From Variovorax sp. PAMC 28711 (lineage in GTDB: Bacteria; Pseudomonadota; Gammaproteobacteria; Burkholderiales; Burkholderiaceae_C), in NCBI RefSeq assembly GCF_001577265.1, contig NZ_CP014517.1, positions 549,001 through 613,000 of the forward strand: a stretch of DNA of 64,000 bases, written 5' to 3'. Positions within the stretch are counted from its first letter, which is position 1. Every line of letters starts with the position of its first letter. Below are positions 222 through 5,369 of the stretch, one piece after another. Below the pieces are notes generated by a model that worked only from the letters and a program-made list of their open reading frames with translations, made no database searches and was not told where the DNA came from. The position numbers and the translations under genes are program-made.

Positions 222-1691
222 ATGAAGACTTCTCAACCAACGCGCTTTCGCGCAGTGCTGTGCGGCGCAGCCGTGGCAGCTGCACTCTCGGTGCTGAGCG
301 GCTGTGCGTCCGACGGCAAAGCCGGCTTCGGATTCGGCGGCACCAGCGCTGCGACGCCAGGCGGATTGGGCGGCGCGGGCACCGACGGCACGAGCGGCGG
401 GGTCGCCGCGGACGGCAGCGGCGCGAACGGTGGCACGGGCGCCGCGGGCGGCGGTGAAGTCGTCGCTGGGGGCGGCGGCACGGGTGGCGGCACCGGCGGG
501 ACCGGCGGCACGGGTGGAACGGGCGGCGGTGGAACGGGCGGTGGCGGCACGGGTGGTGGTGGCACCGGCGGTGGCGGCACGGGTGGTGGCACGGTCACTC
601 CGATCAGCCCCGCGCTTGGCGCGAGCAACGGCCTGCTCGGCGGCGTCGGCCAGACGGTCAGTGCCACCGGGCAACTGGTCGGCGGCCTCAATGCCGGCCC
701 CGCGACCGGACTGGTCAGCAACACGGGTGGCGCGATCGATACGCTCGGCAAGGGCGTGACCAACGGCATCGGTCAACTGCAGCAACCCAATGCGCTGGGC
801 GTTACCGTCGACAGCGTGCCGGTGGCGGTCGGGCAGCTCGGCGACGGGGTCGCCAGCGTGGGCGCCGGAACGGCGCTCGCGCCGGTGACAGGCACCGTCG
901 GCGGCATCGTCAACAAGGCATCGGACGTGGTTGGCGGCGTGACGGGCAACGGCGCGGTGCGCCAGGTGACGACCGGCGTCAGCACGGTGGTCGCACGCAT
1001 CGACGACGGGCTGCTCACGACAACGCAAAAAGTGGGTGCGGCAACAGGCCTGGGCGCCCCGATCGACGGCCTGACCAACAAGGTCGGTGCCGGCATTGCG
1101 CAGCTCGGCGGCAAGCTGCCGGGCAACCAGACCAACGGCCTCACCAGCGCACTTGGCACCACCGTCGCCAGCGTCGGCGGCCTGGTCAATGCACCGGGCA
1201 GCACGCCCTCGGGCCTCGGCGGCTTGAGCGGTGGCCTGGGCGGCGTTCTCGGTGGCGGCCTGAGCGGCGGCAGCAGCAGCGGTGGCAGCGGCCTCGGCGC
1301 CGTCACGGCCGGTCTCGGCGTGGGTGCCGGCGCAGGTGTCTCGGCCGGCTCCGGCGGCGTCAGCGCAGGCGTCGGCCTGGGTGCAGTGGCCGGCATCACC
1401 GCGCCGATCAACTCGGTCCTGAGCCCGGTGCTCTCGCCCGTCACCGCCATCGCAAGCCCGGTCCTGGCGCCGGTCGTGGCCGTCGTCACGCCGGTGGTCG
1501 GTACCGTCGTGCAGACGACCGGGACCGTGGTCGCGACTGCGGGCACCGTGGTGGGCGGCGTGGTGAATGGCACGACCGGTGCCGTCAGCAACGTGGGCGG
1601 TGGCGTGGGCACCGTGGTGGGCGGCACGGTCGCGACGGTGGGCGGCGTGGCCGGCGGCCTGATCGGCGGCCTGGGTCTGGGCCGCAGATGA
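222..1691 (+). CDS. Glycine-rich low-complexity lipoprotein, collagen-like repeat type
   Basis: The 489-residue product begins with a lipoprotein signal: a basic N-terminus, a hydrophobic core and the lipobox LSGC with the lipidated Cys near residue 28. Residues about 80-125 are almost pure Gly/Thr (GGTGG-type units). The rest is a Gly/Val/Ala/Thr-rich chain with recurring VGG, TVV and SPVL blocks and almost no aromatic or charged residues. A ribosome binding site (TGGAG) lies 7 bases before the ATG. Its stop codon overlaps the start of the TpsB-type gene (ATGA), so the two are translationally coupled. Such proteins are often labelled collagen-like. I see no haemagglutinin-type TPS domain. 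A surface-anchored structural or adhesive role is inference. Confidence 0.8.
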   Translation: MKTSQPTRFRAVLCGAAVAAALSVLSGCASDGKAGFGFGGTSAATPGGLGGAGTDGTSGGVAADGSGANGGTGAAGGGEVVAGGGGTGGGTGGTGGTGGTGGGGTGGGGTGGGGTGGGGTGGGTVTPISPALGASNGLLGGVGQTVSATGQLVGGLNAGPATGLVSNTGGAIDTLGKGVTNGIGQLQQPNALGVTVDSVPVAVGQLGDGVASVGAGTALAPVTGTVGGIVNKASDVVGGVTGNGAVRQVTTGVSTVVARIDDGLLTTTQKVGAATGLGAPIDGLTNKVGAGIAQLGGKLPGNQTNGLTSALGTTVASVGGLVNAPGSTPSGLGGLSGGLGGVLGGGLSGGSSSGGSGLGAVTAGLGVGAGAGVSAGSGGVSAGVGLGAVAGITAPINSVLSPVLSPVTAIASPVLAPVVAVVTPVVGTVVQTTGTVVATAGTVVGGVVNGTTGAVSNVGGGVGTVVGGTVATVGGVAGGLIGGLGLGRR

Positions 1692-3394
1692 GCACTGGGC
1701 TTCCGCACCCGATGCGCCGTGTGAGTGTGGTGGTGGCCCTGGCGCTGGCCACCACCGCCACCGGACTGCACGCGCAGTCCGGTGGCGGCAATCCGCTCGA
1801 CCAGTTGCCGGCGACGCGTCCGCTGCAGCCGGTTCCGCCGCCGCGGACGACGGTCGATGTGCAGGCTCCGGCCGGCCCGGCCGAAGCCAAGCTGGCGCGC
1901 AGCGTGACGCCCTCGCGTTTCGACATCGAGGGCGTCAACGCGATCCCCTTCGCCGATGTGGCGAACCTGTTTGCGCCGCTGGCCGGGCAACCGGTGACGG
2001 TGGCCCGCCTGGTGGCGCTGTCGCGCGATGCAACCGCGCTCTATCGCGAGCGCGGCCATCCGCTGTCCTTCGTTTTCGTGCCCGACCAGAGTTTTGACGG
2101 CGGCGTGGTGCGCGTCGTCGCAGTCGAGGGCTACATCGCGAGCGTGCGCATCGAGGGCGACAGCGGCGCGGCCGAGCCCAAGCTGCGCGAGATCGCCGAG
2201 CGCCTGCAGGCTGACCGGCCGTTGTCGCAGGCGACTTTCGAGCGGGTGACGCAACTCCTCGCGCGCCTGCCCGGCGTCAAGGTCGACGCCACCGCGTCAC
2301 TGCCAGAGACGACCGACGGCGCCACCGTGCTGGTGCTCAAGGTGAAGCGCCAGCCCTACAACGTGTCACTCGGCGCCGACGTGCGCCAGCCGACACCGCG
2401 CGCCGTGCTGAGCGGCGTGCTCAACGACCCGTTCGGGTCCGGTGGACAGCTGAGCGCCTCGACGCTGCTCGGCAACTTCGAGCGCGAGAAACTGCTCACG
2501 CTCGGCTACACCCAACTGGTCGGCGCCGACGGCTTGCAGCTCAAGACCAGTTTCTCGACCTATCGCGGCTACCCCGACGAGCAACTGGGCCGCGGCGAGC
2601 CGCTGGAGCGCTTCAACACCAACCGCCGCTTCGAGCTGTCGGCCAGCTACCCGCTCTACCTGAGCGCCCGCAGCAGCGTCACGCTGAACGGCGGCTTCTA
2701 CGCGGTCGACAACGTGGACGACTACCGCGAACGTTCGACCGGCGGCCGGCTGGCCGACGACACCCGCGTGCGCGCGCTCTTCGCCCAACTCGCGTATGCC
2801 GACGCACAGCCTGACCGCAGCCGCAGCGCCAGCGTGCTCGTCGCGCAAGGGATCGACGGCGTCGGCGCGCAGGCCGAGGTGCGCAGCAACATCGCCGGAC
2901 TCTCCGGCCCCGGCAGCGCCAGTCTCGACTTCACGCGCATCGCGTTCGACGCGAGCCAGCGCGACCGCTTTGCCAACCAGTGGGGCACCGGCGTGTCGTT
3001 CGGCGCGCAGTACAGCGGCCACACGCTGGCGGCGTCGGAGCGCATTTCATTCGGCGGCGCGCGCTTCGGCCGTGGCTATGCGGCAGGCGATGCCGCGGGC
3101 GACGCGGGCTGGGGCGTGGGACTGGAACTCAACCGGCTCTTCAAGTTCGATGGCGTGTGGCTCAACCAGGTCGAGCCCTACCTGCTGGTCGAAGCGGCGC
3201 GCGTGTCGAACCACGTGGGCACGCCGGCGCCGGAAAAACTGCGCTCGGTCGCGCTCGGGGTGCGGCTGTCGGACAGCCGCTACTACAGCGTCGACATCGC
3301 CGTCGCCAAACCGACGGGCGATGCCTCAGCGACCAACCCGGCCCGCAAACCGCGCCTCAGCCTGATGCTGAGCTACCAGCTCGCGGCCAACTGA
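1688..3394 (+). CDS. ShlB/FhaC/HecB (TpsB) family outer-membrane transporter
   Basis: This 568-residue protein has an N-terminal signal peptide (mature after HAQ near residue 30), a proline-rich linker, a POTRA-like region (about residues 75-150, beginning SRFDIEGVNAIPF) and a C-terminal beta-barrel of alternating polar and hydrophobic strands. The FGGARFGRGY segment near residue 455 matches the conserved loop-6 Arg-Gly-Tyr/Phe motif of TpsB/Omp85 transporters. TpsB proteins secrete a partner protein across the outer membrane. The start codon overlaps the stop of the preceding glycine-rich lipoprotein gene, which is the obvious candidate client although it lacks a recognisable TPS signal domain. 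The family call is firm; the client is inferred. Confidence 0.9.
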   Translation: MSTGLPHPMRRVSVVVALALATTATGLHAQSGGGNPLDQLPATRPLQPVPPPRTTVDVQAPAGPAEAKLARSVTPSRFDIEGVNAIPFADVANLFAPLAGQPVTVARLVALSRDATALYRERGHPLSFVFVPDQSFDGGVVRVVAVEGYIASVRIEGDSGAAEPKLREIAERLQADRPLSQATFERVTQLLARLPGVKVDATASLPETTDGATVLVLKVKRQPYNVSLGADVRQPTPRAVLSGVLNDPFGSGGQLSASTLLGNFEREKLLTLGYTQLVGADGLQLKTSFSTYRGYPDEQLGRGEPLERFNTNRRFELSASYPLYLSARSSVTLNGGFYAVDNVDDYRERSTGGRLADDTRVRALFAQLAYADAQPDRSRSASVLVAQGIDGVGAQAEVRSNIAGLSGPGSASLDFTRIAFDASQRDRFANQWGTGVSFGAQYSGHTLAASERISFGGARFGRGYAAGDAAGDAGWGVGLELNRLFKFDGVWLNQVEPYLLVEAARVSNHVGTPAPEKLRSVALGVRLSDSRYYSVDIAVAKPTGDASATNPARKPRLSLMLSYQLAAN

Positions 3395-3397
3395 CGT

Positions 3398-3811
3398 TCA
3401 GCGGGCGGCGGCCATGTCGCGGCAGAGTTTCAGATTGCTGTTGAAGCGCGGTGCCAGGCCGGGTTCGCACACGTCGCCCGACGGGATCAGCCGGCACAGG
3501 CCGACCACGATGTAGTCGGACACCGCATCGGAGCAGGGCTTGTAGCGCGCGAGCGCCGGGTTGGCCTTCGTCTTGAAGCCCCACTGCTCCGAAAAGACCA
3601 TCGCGCGGCCCATCGATTCCTCGAAGTAGTCGCGATCGCGCTCGGCCACCGCGGTTTCCATCCGTGGCAATTCCTCGTTGAGGAAGCCGGTGGCGGCGAG
3701 CGGAAACTCCGAGGCCGGCGCCTGCGCAGAGGCCAGCGGCGCCACGAGGGCCAGCGTCAGGGCAAGGAGGATGCGATGGCATGTCATGGCGGTGATTTTC
3801 GCGCCCTTCAT
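3398..3811 (-). CDS. Putative exported protein of unknown function
   Basis: The 137-residue product carries a signal peptide (hydrophobic LLALTLALVAPLASAQA, cleavage after AQA about residue 31). The mature part of about 105 residues has four cysteines spread through its second half, compatible with disulfides in the periplasm. I do not recognise the family. The ATG overlaps the stop of the upstream DUF2164 gene by four bases (ATGA), which supports this start and translational coupling. A second in-frame ATG eight codons later would also leave a complete signal peptide. It is convergent with the TpsB-type gene, with three bases between the stops. Confidence 0.7.
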   Translation of the reverse strand: MKGAKITAMTCHRILLALTLALVAPLASAQAPASEFPLAATGFLNEELPRMETAVAERDRDYFEESMGRAMVFSEQWGFKTKANPALARYKPCSDAVSDYIVVGLCRLIPSGDVCEPGLAPRFNSNLKLCRDMAAAR

Positions 3812-4080
3812 CGCTTGCCTCGCGCCTTGTCGAACTTGCGCCAGTAGGCGAACTCGTCTTCGTGCACGTCGATGTCCAGTTCGGAGATGCGCGCCTGCAG
3901 CCGATCCTGCACATCGGCGACGGCTTTGTTGTAGACCAGCGGACCCATCTCTTCAAGGAAGAAACCCAGCAACGCGCCGGCGGCGACGTTCCCGATTTTC
4001 TCTTCGATGTTCTCGCGGAAGTAGCGTTCGATGGAGGCGATGGCTTCTTGCCGCGCCTCCCTGGAAATTTCGATGGTCAT
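3808..4080 (-). CDS. DUF2164 family protein
   Basis: This 90-residue, charged protein begins MTIEISREARQEAIASIERYF and continues with an NVAAGALLGFFLEEMGPLVYNKAVADVQDRL segment typical of the small DUF2164 family, whose function is unknown. No signal peptide or membrane span is present, so it is probably cytoplasmic. It is the first gene of a two-gene unit with the exported protein downstream (ATGA overlap). It is divergent from the beta-propeller lipoprotein gene across a 95-base spacer that must hold both promoters. Confidence 0.8.
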   Translation of the reverse strand: MTIEISREARQEAIASIERYFRENIEEKIGNVAAGALLGFFLEEMGPLVYNKAVADVQDRLQARISELDIDVHEDEFAYWRKFDKARGKR

Positions 4081-4175: not shown

Positions 4176-5369
4176 ATGAACACCCTGACCGGCAGCCTCG
4201 CCGCCCTCACGCTGGCCGCGCTCGCCGCCCTCGGCGGCTGCACGAACATGACGCCGACCGTGCCGCAGCGCCAGCTGATGCTGGTCGCCAACGACGAAAA
4301 GCAGGCGTGGAACGACGCCGGCGGCGTCGTCCTCAGTCCGCAGGGCAAGGACACCGTGCAGATCCTCGACATCGGCACCGACCCGCTCGCGCCGAAGGTG
4401 CTTGGCACGCTGCAGCTCGACAACACCATCGCCGGCCCGCCGACCAACCTGGCGATCACGCCCGGCGAAACGCTGGCGCTGGTCGCCAACTCGCTCAACG
4501 TGGTCGAAGAAAACGGCGTGCGAAAGCAAGTGCCCGACAACCGGCTTTTCGTGATCGACCTGACGACCGTGCCGCCGAAGTTGATCGACACGCTCACGAT
4601 CGGCAAGCAACCTTCCGGCCTCACGATCAATCGCGCGGGCAACCTCGCGCTGGTCGCGAACCGCGCCGACAACTCGGTCAGCGTGCTGCGCATCGCCGGC
4701 AAGCAGGTGTCGCTGATCGACACCGTGCCGATGGGCGATTCGGTCGCGCACGTGCGCTTCACGCCCGATGGCAAGCGCGCGCTCGCCGCCAAGTTCACGA
4801 CGCACAAGATCGCGTTGCTCGAAGTCAACGGCGAGAAGGTCAGCTACAACAAGGTCGACATGGCCGCCGGCCTGTGGCCGTACAACGTCGATGTGACGCC
4901 CGACGGCAAACTCGCGCTCACCGCGGACAACGGCAACTCGGGCGCCTCCGACGGCCAGGTCGACACGGTGAGCGTGATCGACATGGAAGCGATGCCGCCG
5001 CGCGTGGTCGACAAGGTGGTGGTCGGCGACGGCCCCGAAGGTCTTGCGATCAGCCCGACGGGCAAGCACGCGGTGGCCGTGATCCTGCGCGGCAGCAACG
5101 CCGCGAAGAGCGCGTACTTCCACCACCGCGAAGGCTCGGTGGTGCTGCTGAAGATCGACGGCAAGAAGGTGACGCGCGGCAACGAAGTCGTGGTGCGCGG
5201 CCTGCCGGAAGGGGCGGTGTGGAGCGCTGACGGCCGGTATCTGTATGTCGGCAATTTCATCGACCAGGACATCAGCATCCTGCGGCTCGACGGCGACACG
5301 CTGGTGCCCACCGGCAAGTCGTTCGCGCTGCAGGGCCACCCGGCCGCGATGCGCAGCAAAATCAACTGA
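4176..5369 (+). CDS. YncE/YVTN-type beta-propeller lipoprotein
   Basis: The product of 397 residues starts with a lipoprotein signal (LAALGGC, Cys near 22) followed by repeated blades such as GKQPSGLTINRAGNLALVAN, LTADNGNSG and GDGPEGLAISPTGKHAVAV. These are characteristic of YncE-like, seven-bladed YVTN beta-propellers, also grouped with 3-carboxymuconate-cyclase-like lactonases. A strong Shine-Dalgarno (AGGAG, 4163-4167) precedes the ATG. The reading frame stays open well upstream, but this ATG gives the signal peptide. It probably acts in the periplasm, anchored to a membrane. The substrate is unknown, and a catalytic role cannot be read from the sequence. Confidence 0.82.
   Translation: MNTLTGSLAALTLAALAALGGCTNMTPTVPQRQLMLVANDEKQAWNDAGGVVLSPQGKDTVQILDIGTDPLAPKVLGTLQLDNTIAGPPTNLAITPGETLALVANSLNVVEENGVRKQVPDNRLFVIDLTTVPPKLIDTLTIGKQPSGLTINRAGNLALVANRADNSVSVLRIAGKQVSLIDTVPMGDSVAHVRFTPDGKRALAAKFTTHKIALLEVNGEKVSYNKVDMAAGLWPYNVDVTPDGKLALTADNGNSGASDGQVDTVSVIDMEAMPPRVVDKVVVGDGPEGLAISPTGKHAVAVILRGSNAAKSAYFHHREGSVVLLKIDGKKVTRGNEVVVRGLPEGAVWSADGRYLYVGNFIDQDISILRLDGDTLVPTGKSFALQGHPAAMRSKIN

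Follow-up and report, generated by a model that had tools for sequence, protein, structure and literature searches.

A Collagen_mid lipoprotein gene paired with a TpsB transporter gene in Variovorax and its relatives: a proposed operon for surface display of a lipoprotein

The lipoprotein-TpsB locus

The window analysed in this work is a stretch of 64,000 nucleotides from Variovorax sp. PAMC 28711 (contig NZ_CP014517.1, positions 549,001 to 613,000 of the forward strand). Near its beginning a gene for a 489-residue lipoprotein overlaps the gene for a full outer-membrane transporter of the TpsB/FhaC family, the family that serves two-partner secretion (TPS). The pair is real and conserved in other genomes, and we consider it likely that the two genes form an operon for display of the lipoprotein on the cell surface. 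The features of the locus are as follows, with the basis of each assignment in parentheses.

222..1691, + strand: lipoprotein of the Collagen_mid family, 489 aa, proposed surface client (open reading frame (ORF), Pfam, alignment)
222..302, + strand: lipoprotein signal peptide, residues 1-27, with the LSG lipobox at its end (sequence)
303..305, + strand: codon of the lipidated Cys28 (+1) (sequence)
306..605, + strand: Gly/Thr-rich low-complexity linker, residues 29-128, limits approximate and set by eye (sequence)
708..1199, + strand: Pfam PF15984 Collagen_mid core, residues 163-326 (Pfam search)
1647..1688, + strand: C-terminal tail VAGGLIGGLGLGRR, candidate recognition signal (family comparison)
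1688..1691, + strand: ATGA, TpsB start overlapping the lipoprotein stop (sequence)
1688..3394, + strand: outer-membrane transporter of the TpsB/FhaC family, 568 aa, proposed translocon (Pfam, profile alignment)
1910..2131, + strand: POTRA_2 domain, residues 75-148 (Pfam)
2492..3268, + strand: ShlB barrel match, residues 269-527 (Pfam)
3071..3079, + strand: RGY of the L6-type loop motif, residues 462-464 (alignment, by eye)

An earlier sequence-only reading of this locus had described a lipoprotein of 489 residues joined by an ATGA overlap to a full TpsB, with a lipobox and no TPS domain. All of this held: both ORFs and the ATGA lie as listed, a GGAG (212-215) stands ahead of the lipoprotein ATG, the lipobox reads LSG-C28, and the Pfam search of the lipoprotein gave Collagen_mid (73.3 bits against a gathering cut-off of 31.1) and no other family, TPS included, at E-values up to 1. 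Residue +2 is Ala, so that there is no Asp Lol-avoidance signal. The same reading went too far in calling the composition nearly pure Gly/Val/Thr/Ala, since the mature part of 462 residues is 32% Gly and 69% these four residues together. It had also spoken of a collagen-like client. With 4% Pro and a longest run of nine triplets with Gly at every third residue, the window lipoprotein was ruled out as a true collagen, and for it the term is a family name only. Longer triplet runs occur in two relatives (23 in L024 and 35 in L089; L and G numbers are our labels for loci and genomes), and the Pfam family Collagen matched one of 20 relatives. The C-terminal part is likewise of low complexity. Relatives in the PDB were sought with the lipoprotein family profile (A2) and rejected, since the 19 matches at E-values up to 1 look low-complexity; the best (E 8.4e-6) is by name an interleukin-2/antibody light-chain construct.

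The transporter matched POTRA_2 (57.8 bits) and ShlB (41.4 bits) above the Pfam cut-offs, with a second POTRA domain weakly matched (E 0.13) and no SlipAM match at E-values up to 1. Its subfamily profile covers nearly all of FhaC (chain residues 33-541, E 7.7e-12), and the solved structures related to it by sequence include CdiB, FhaC and TpsB4. The RGY motif is presumably the counterpart of the FhaC L6 loop, with which the profile alignment to FhaC agrees.

Both frames look coding from the excess of differences at the third codon position in comparison with the Variovorax relative L003 (98/92/189 at positions 1/2/3 for the lipoprotein, over 348 codons since the gene is cut in L003, and 57/34/184 for TpsB). 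We took the long antisense ORFs at the locus as by-products of high GC. A same-strand ORF that resembles glutathione S-transferase by eye stops 219 bases upstream of the lipoprotein gene (L047), and the downstream genes up to position 4080 lie on the opposite strand; the arrangement thus looks like a two-gene operon.

The pair recurs in related bacteria

The sequence-only reading had suggested a search for the pair in Comamonadaceae genomes. We found it as 26 cassettes in 25 genomes or records, each with a family lipoprotein upstream of the same type of TpsB, although in three of the 25 the lipoprotein belongs only distantly to this family. The number 25 was reached after merging three records of one organism (L005, L007 and L092), and further repeats among the genomes are possible. 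In all 26 cassettes the two genes share a strand and the lipoprotein gene comes first, and the 4-nt overlap is found in six of them (the window, L003, L005, L009, L093 and L094). A Gly-rich ORF stands directly 5' of TpsB in all eight loci taken from named genome contigs (Variovorax, Xenophilus and other Burkholderiales), which represent seven organisms because one Xenophilus supplied both L005 and L007. In four cases (L003, L004, L010 and the first cassette of L008) the contig or the locus begins inside this ORF, and for that reason no lipobox was seen. The pairing recurs across at least seven families of the class, and two of the records that carry it are plasmids (of Cupriavidus metallidurans CH34 and p1 of Caballeronia insecticola).

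Several cassettes depart from the simple arrangement. A second, apparently secreted, protein is encoded between the lipoprotein and TpsB in L024 and L089 (L024:5672-6508 and L089:4362-5099). Both intervening proteins have a non-lipoprotein signal peptide by eye and no Pfam match over the cut-off, and the one in L024 carries similar LAPVTGL repeats; they are possibly released clients. Variovorax sp. KK3 (L008) has two tandem cassettes, the second TpsB being cut by the locus end. The TpsB gene of G567 (L098) is split over several frames in a one-contig genome, which points to a pseudogene or a sequencing error, and the lipoprotein ORF of this genome has 477 residues, the last of which are unlike those of its relatives. 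The profile search read through one TGA in the TpsB of G668, yet a 576-residue ORF is intact there.

No third gene was common to all clades among the 19 loci compared. Flp/Tad pilus genes (prepilin peptidase, TadE, RcpC/CpaB) lie near five of these loci (L021, L023, L024, L025 and L096); the Pfam searches covered five ORFs of L021, L023, L024 and L096.

Lipoprotein and transporter co-occur, and the linked TpsBs form one clade

We searched genomes of the same family, order and class for Collagen_mid and, with profile A1, for TpsB. At most six TpsB and 15 Collagen_mid candidates were scored per genome (four and eight, respectively, in the class searches), and some members may therefore have escaped detection. 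The TpsB of the window scores 919.6 bits. Eight of 200 family genomes were above the Collagen_mid cut-off, and the same eight have a TpsB of this type with at least 294 bits, the lowest score being that of one piece of the split G567 gene; the next best genome reached 218. The other 192 passed neither threshold at the sensitivity of the scored candidates. Among these, G684 belongs to the same genus, and its lack of both Collagen_mid and this TpsB type indicates patchy carriage.

At the order level, the five of 200 genomes above the Collagen_mid cut-off are also those at the top of the TpsB search (at least 684 bits). The next four TpsBs belong to G025, G072 and G191 (484-520 bits) and to G166 (360 bits). 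An adjoining lipoprotein missed by Pfam was found in the first three with the family profile (E 6e-14 to 3e-17), and G166 has, about 2.4 kb from TpsB and on the other strand, a lipoprotein with similar repeats and no clear core. At the class level, where 369 genomes were drawn for Collagen_mid and 339 for TpsB, three of the 369, this one included, were above the Collagen_mid cut-off. TpsB stands alongside in G358 and G559 (310-321 bits); G559 was part of the first draw only, and its TpsB came to light when the neighbourhood was read.

Collagen_mid matches below the cut-off (G580 and G595 in the family, G058 in the order, G241 and G337 in the class) were set aside. Loci from three of these five genomes (L027, L044 and L045) contain no TpsB. 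L027 has one weak match to the lipoprotein profile (E 5.7e-5), a profile that can match unrelated Gly-rich lipoproteins at about 1e-5 (L112:9634-10374). The 28 control loci with lower-scoring TpsBs, which represent 24 places (four were fetched twice), most with about 1.5 kb of flank, gave no lipoprotein-profile match at E-values up to 1, and loci L115 to L119 gave none at E-values up to 0.01.

In a tree of 46 TpsBs a branch with 99/98 support separates the 23 lipoprotein-linked ones from the rest, and the linkage label changes once, compared with a mean of 15.6 times for shuffled labels. The tree is midpoint-rooted, and its 23 other TpsBs are only those brought in by the A1 search; five of them were checked for a lipoprotein before the tree was made and 18 after, most with about 1.5 kb of flank. 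The linked label was given from adjacency, the weakest case being L090, labelled by proximity alone (its lipoprotein gene is on the opposite strand at a distance of about 2.4 kb). Counted by eye in an alignment of these 46, the Arg of RGY is kept in 18 of the 23 clade members, with Leu in its place in four (L021, L023, L024 and L025) and Ala in L090; in the strand that follows, 22 of the 23 clade members have E/D-x-A and 16 of the 23 others have D-x-G. Azospirillum TpsB matches (about 26%) were rejected, the one locus read having different neighbours: in L114, from Azospirillum ramasamyi, a cyclase-domain gene precedes the distant TpsB, and a gene for a parallel beta-helix protein lies downstream.

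Features of the lipoprotein family

We compared 25 lipoproteins, that of the window included. Four are extra copies that are not the direct partner of a TpsB (L021:6529, L022, L091 and L112:2531); the set excludes the start-cut ORFs of L003, L004, the first L008 cassette and L010, as well as L026, L090 and L098. All 25 have a lipobox, its Cys being invariant in the 20 rows of alignment A2, and none has a Cys beyond +1. The mature part holds at most six aromatic or His residues in 24 of the 25 (21 in L043). The absence of further Cys and the scarcity of aromatic and His residues fit a chain that needs to stay unfolded, a pattern that low complexity alone could also explain. GG followed by L, I or V was found by eye within the last 14 residues of 19 of the 25, where it may arise by chance through low complexity.

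Three genomes carry more Collagen_mid lipoproteins than TpsBs of the clade (two, two and three in G634, G007 and G158, respectively, against one TpsB found in each), which is the pattern expected of clients. In near pairs the identity is lower for the lipoprotein than for TpsB (61% versus 87% with L003, 51% versus 69% with L006). The identities of the two proteins are correlated in a Mantel-type comparison of 17 pairs (r 0.64, with none of 5000 permutations as high), a value that species ancestry alone could give.

TPS-domain proteins and Slam in genomes with the pair

Searches for another client or another route covered 17 of the 25 genomes or records. No TPS-domain match was found in five of the 17 (G567, G582, G121, G191 and G358). 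The cassette TpsB is the sole ShlB match in four of these five, and G567, with its broken TpsB, has no ShlB match. The other 12 genomes contain 33 TPS-domain matches, 22 of which have another ShlB match within 6 kb, and in eight of the 12, this genome included, every TPS client is so accompanied. The remaining 11 matches, without another ShlB within 6 kb on the same contig, belong to G158 (four), G662 (five), G668 and G119 (one each). In G158 three have no ShlB on their contig (bases 1440, 2838 and 7519 of theirs) and one lies at 9.3 kb; the five of G662 lie in an array whose distance from a ShlB match is 10-37 kb. The genome studied here has a single TPS-domain match (C1:2554943), 330 bp from a second TpsB and 2 Mb from the TpsB of the window. 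Apart from the window pair, the matches in this genome gave a single two-partner system, made up of this canonical TpsB and the TPS-domain client that follows it (L046, C1:2553675-2555737).

Slam was sought with SlipAM/DUF560 (in this genome at E-values up to 0.001). A match was absent in 13 of the 17 genomes, this one included, and with four matches in 17 Slam was ruled out as a general route.

Neighbouring genes

Two small overlapping genes on the minus strand (3398-3811 and 3808-4080) converge with the operon; one has no Pfam match and the other matches DUF2164. Farther on, 4176-5369 encodes a beta-propeller protein of the Lactonase family, with an N-terminus that likewise resembles a lipoprotein signal (LGGC). 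A phage origin was rejected, since no PHROG match was obtained at E-values up to 0.001.

Interpretation of the pair

We infer that the lipoprotein is the client of the TpsB encoded next to it, and the arrangement is most probably a variant of type Vb secretion in which the client is a lipid-anchored surface adhesin. In the proposed mechanism the lipoprotein, of low complexity, nearly without aromatic residues and without Cys beyond +1, would stay unfolded; TpsB would probably recognise the Collagen_mid core or the C-terminal tail in place of a TPS domain and would thread the protein to the cell surface. There the lipoprotein would be held by its lipid, in the inner or the outer leaflet, with the flexible Gly-rich linker, and might act in cell-cell or surface adhesion. 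A bolder version, which we put forward tentatively, is that the TpsBs of this clade are translocons dedicated to surface lipoproteins and arose independently of Slam, whose job they would share. They would open laterally to pass the acylated protein together with its lipid into the outer leaflet, would recognise the core or the tail in place of a TPS domain, and would serve several lipoproteins per genome.

Published work on Burkholderia concerns related proteins. BCAL1524, of the same Pfam family, was detected in outer-membrane vesicles in a comparison of the deletion mutant with the wild type; it promotes autoaggregation and has an effect on the infection of Galleria (PMC10303873). Contact with host membrane vesicles induces BCAL1520, BCAL1523 and BCAL1524 (PMC7970998). 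BCAL1523, BCAL1524, BCAL1522 and BCAL1520 are described as a possible single operon beside Flp pilus genes, Flp/Tad genes are placed beside BCAL1525, and BCAL1522 (1,686 bases, 561 residues) is predicted to be an outer-membrane protein (PMC10224339). From its size, place and order we infer that BCAL1522 is this TpsB, in which case the order lipoprotein then TpsB matches that of our cassettes.

Several observations weigh against a lipoprotein client. The TPS domain, which defines TPS clients, was not found in the lipoprotein at E-values up to 1. Asp stands at +2 in two of the 25 lipoproteins (L087 and L088, from one family), and in E. coli Asp at this position keeps a lipoprotein at the inner membrane. 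Over the conserved columns of 17 pairs the mean identity is 37% for the lipoprotein and 40% for TpsB; a faster evolution of the lipoprotein is therefore not clear, and an argument from divergence is weak. The Collagen_mid genes of L022, L026 and L091 have no adjoining TpsB in the stretch read, although their genomes carry one. In the case of the top-scoring unlinked TpsB (G219, 244 bits, followed by G291 with 230), the contig end truncates the upstream side. The location of BCAL1524 in vesicles does not imply surface exposure, and no transport or translocation experiment for the pair was found in the literature searched.

The strongest competing explanation, which we nevertheless regard as unlikely, is that the lipoprotein is a periplasmic accessory of TpsB, like BcpO or the lipoproteins of the beta-barrel assembly machinery (BAM), and that both serve an unlinked client. 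BcpO, a predicted inner-leaflet lipoprotein of 73-74 aa, is required for full function, and its gene stands immediately 5' of a TpsB gene (PMC3415462); the gene order is the same here, and the about equal conservation of the lipoprotein core and TpsB, with its correlation, also speaks for an accessory. Against such a role stand the length of 489 residues and low complexity of the lipoprotein, its several copies per TpsB in three genomes, its faster change in near pairs, the five genomes without a TPS-domain match, and the adhesion-type phenotype that BCAL1524 has of its own.

It is less probable still that the lipoprotein surfaces by another route, through BAM or unassisted, while TpsB has a different task in the same function. 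Lipoproteins are known to reach the surface through BAM, type II secretion and Slam (PMC7857515), but such an explanation has to account for the pairing with one TpsB clade, and a Slam match is mostly absent. As to the sequence-only reading, which had left the choice between a lipidated client handled in an unrecognised mode and an ordinary TPS client encoded elsewhere, the first option is favoured by the recurrence in 25 genomes or records, the separate TpsB clade and the five genomes without a TPS-domain match. The second, with the place beside the lipoprotein incidental, is very improbable given those five genomes, the eight others in which each TPS client has its own TpsB and the spread of the pairing over at least seven families, and it is disfavoured in Variovorax sp. 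PAMC 28711 by the position of the only TPS match beside its own TpsB; the 11 unaccompanied TPS-domain matches leave room for it in four of the 17 genomes.

If lipoprotein display by TpsB is correct, it would add a surface-lipoprotein route to Slam, BAM, NalP-type autotransport and type II secretion, and would mean that a TPS domain is not, as the rule has it, required of every TpsB client. It would also make the question of the leaflet that holds the lipids of type V substrates (PMC8151025) addressable with two separate genes, and would supply a likely transporter for adhesion-related Burkholderia proteins whose export is left unexplained in the literature passages.

Comparison with known systems

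The lipoprotein family and an adhesion phenotype have been published; the pairing with TpsB is undescribed as far as we searched. No publication linking Collagen_mid lipoproteins to TpsB, or reporting a lipidated TpsB client, was found in the open-access literature, which leaves most subscription papers outside. The term 'two-partner' is absent from the main text of a review that names Slam, BAM, NalP-type autotransport and type II secretion as surface-lipoprotein routes (PMC7857515). As far as their passages go, the TPS/Omp85 papers PMC5422565 and PMC4104836 do not contain 'collagen', and their lipoprotein passages concern other proteins. The collagen-like proteins of the Burkholderia cepacia complex (BCAL1523, BCAL1524 and others) share PF15984 with the window lipoprotein and, like it, are mostly predicted lipoproteins; the paper describing them calls BCAL1522 heme utilisation-related, and its main text contains neither 'two-partner' nor 'ShlB' (PMC10224339).

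Like FhaC/FHA and CdiB/CdiA of type Vb, the present system has a TpsB with POTRA_2 and a ShlB barrel and adjacent genes for client and transporter. It differs from them in that the proposed client is a 489-aa lipoprotein without a TPS domain and in that the TpsB clade is separate from the 23 others in the tree. Burkholderia bcpAIOB resembles it in having a lipoprotein gene just 5' of the TpsB gene, whereas the small BcpO is accessory to a contact-dependent growth inhibition protein (PMC3415462). NalP and SphB1 of type Va are likewise type V substrates bearing a lipobox, for which the leaflet of the lipid is stated to be undetermined (PMC8151025); in NalP passenger and barrel are one polypeptide (PMC7857515), whereas here there are two. 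In the case of Slam, a lipoprotein gene often lies beside the gene for a dedicated outer-membrane protein (PMC5449769), and Slam1 serves two lipoproteins (PMC7857515), much as one TpsB may serve several here. Slam has an N-terminus of tetratricopeptide repeats and a predicted 14-stranded barrel (PMC7857515) in place of POTRA_2 and ShlB, and its translocation has been likened to two-partner secretion (PMC9090332).

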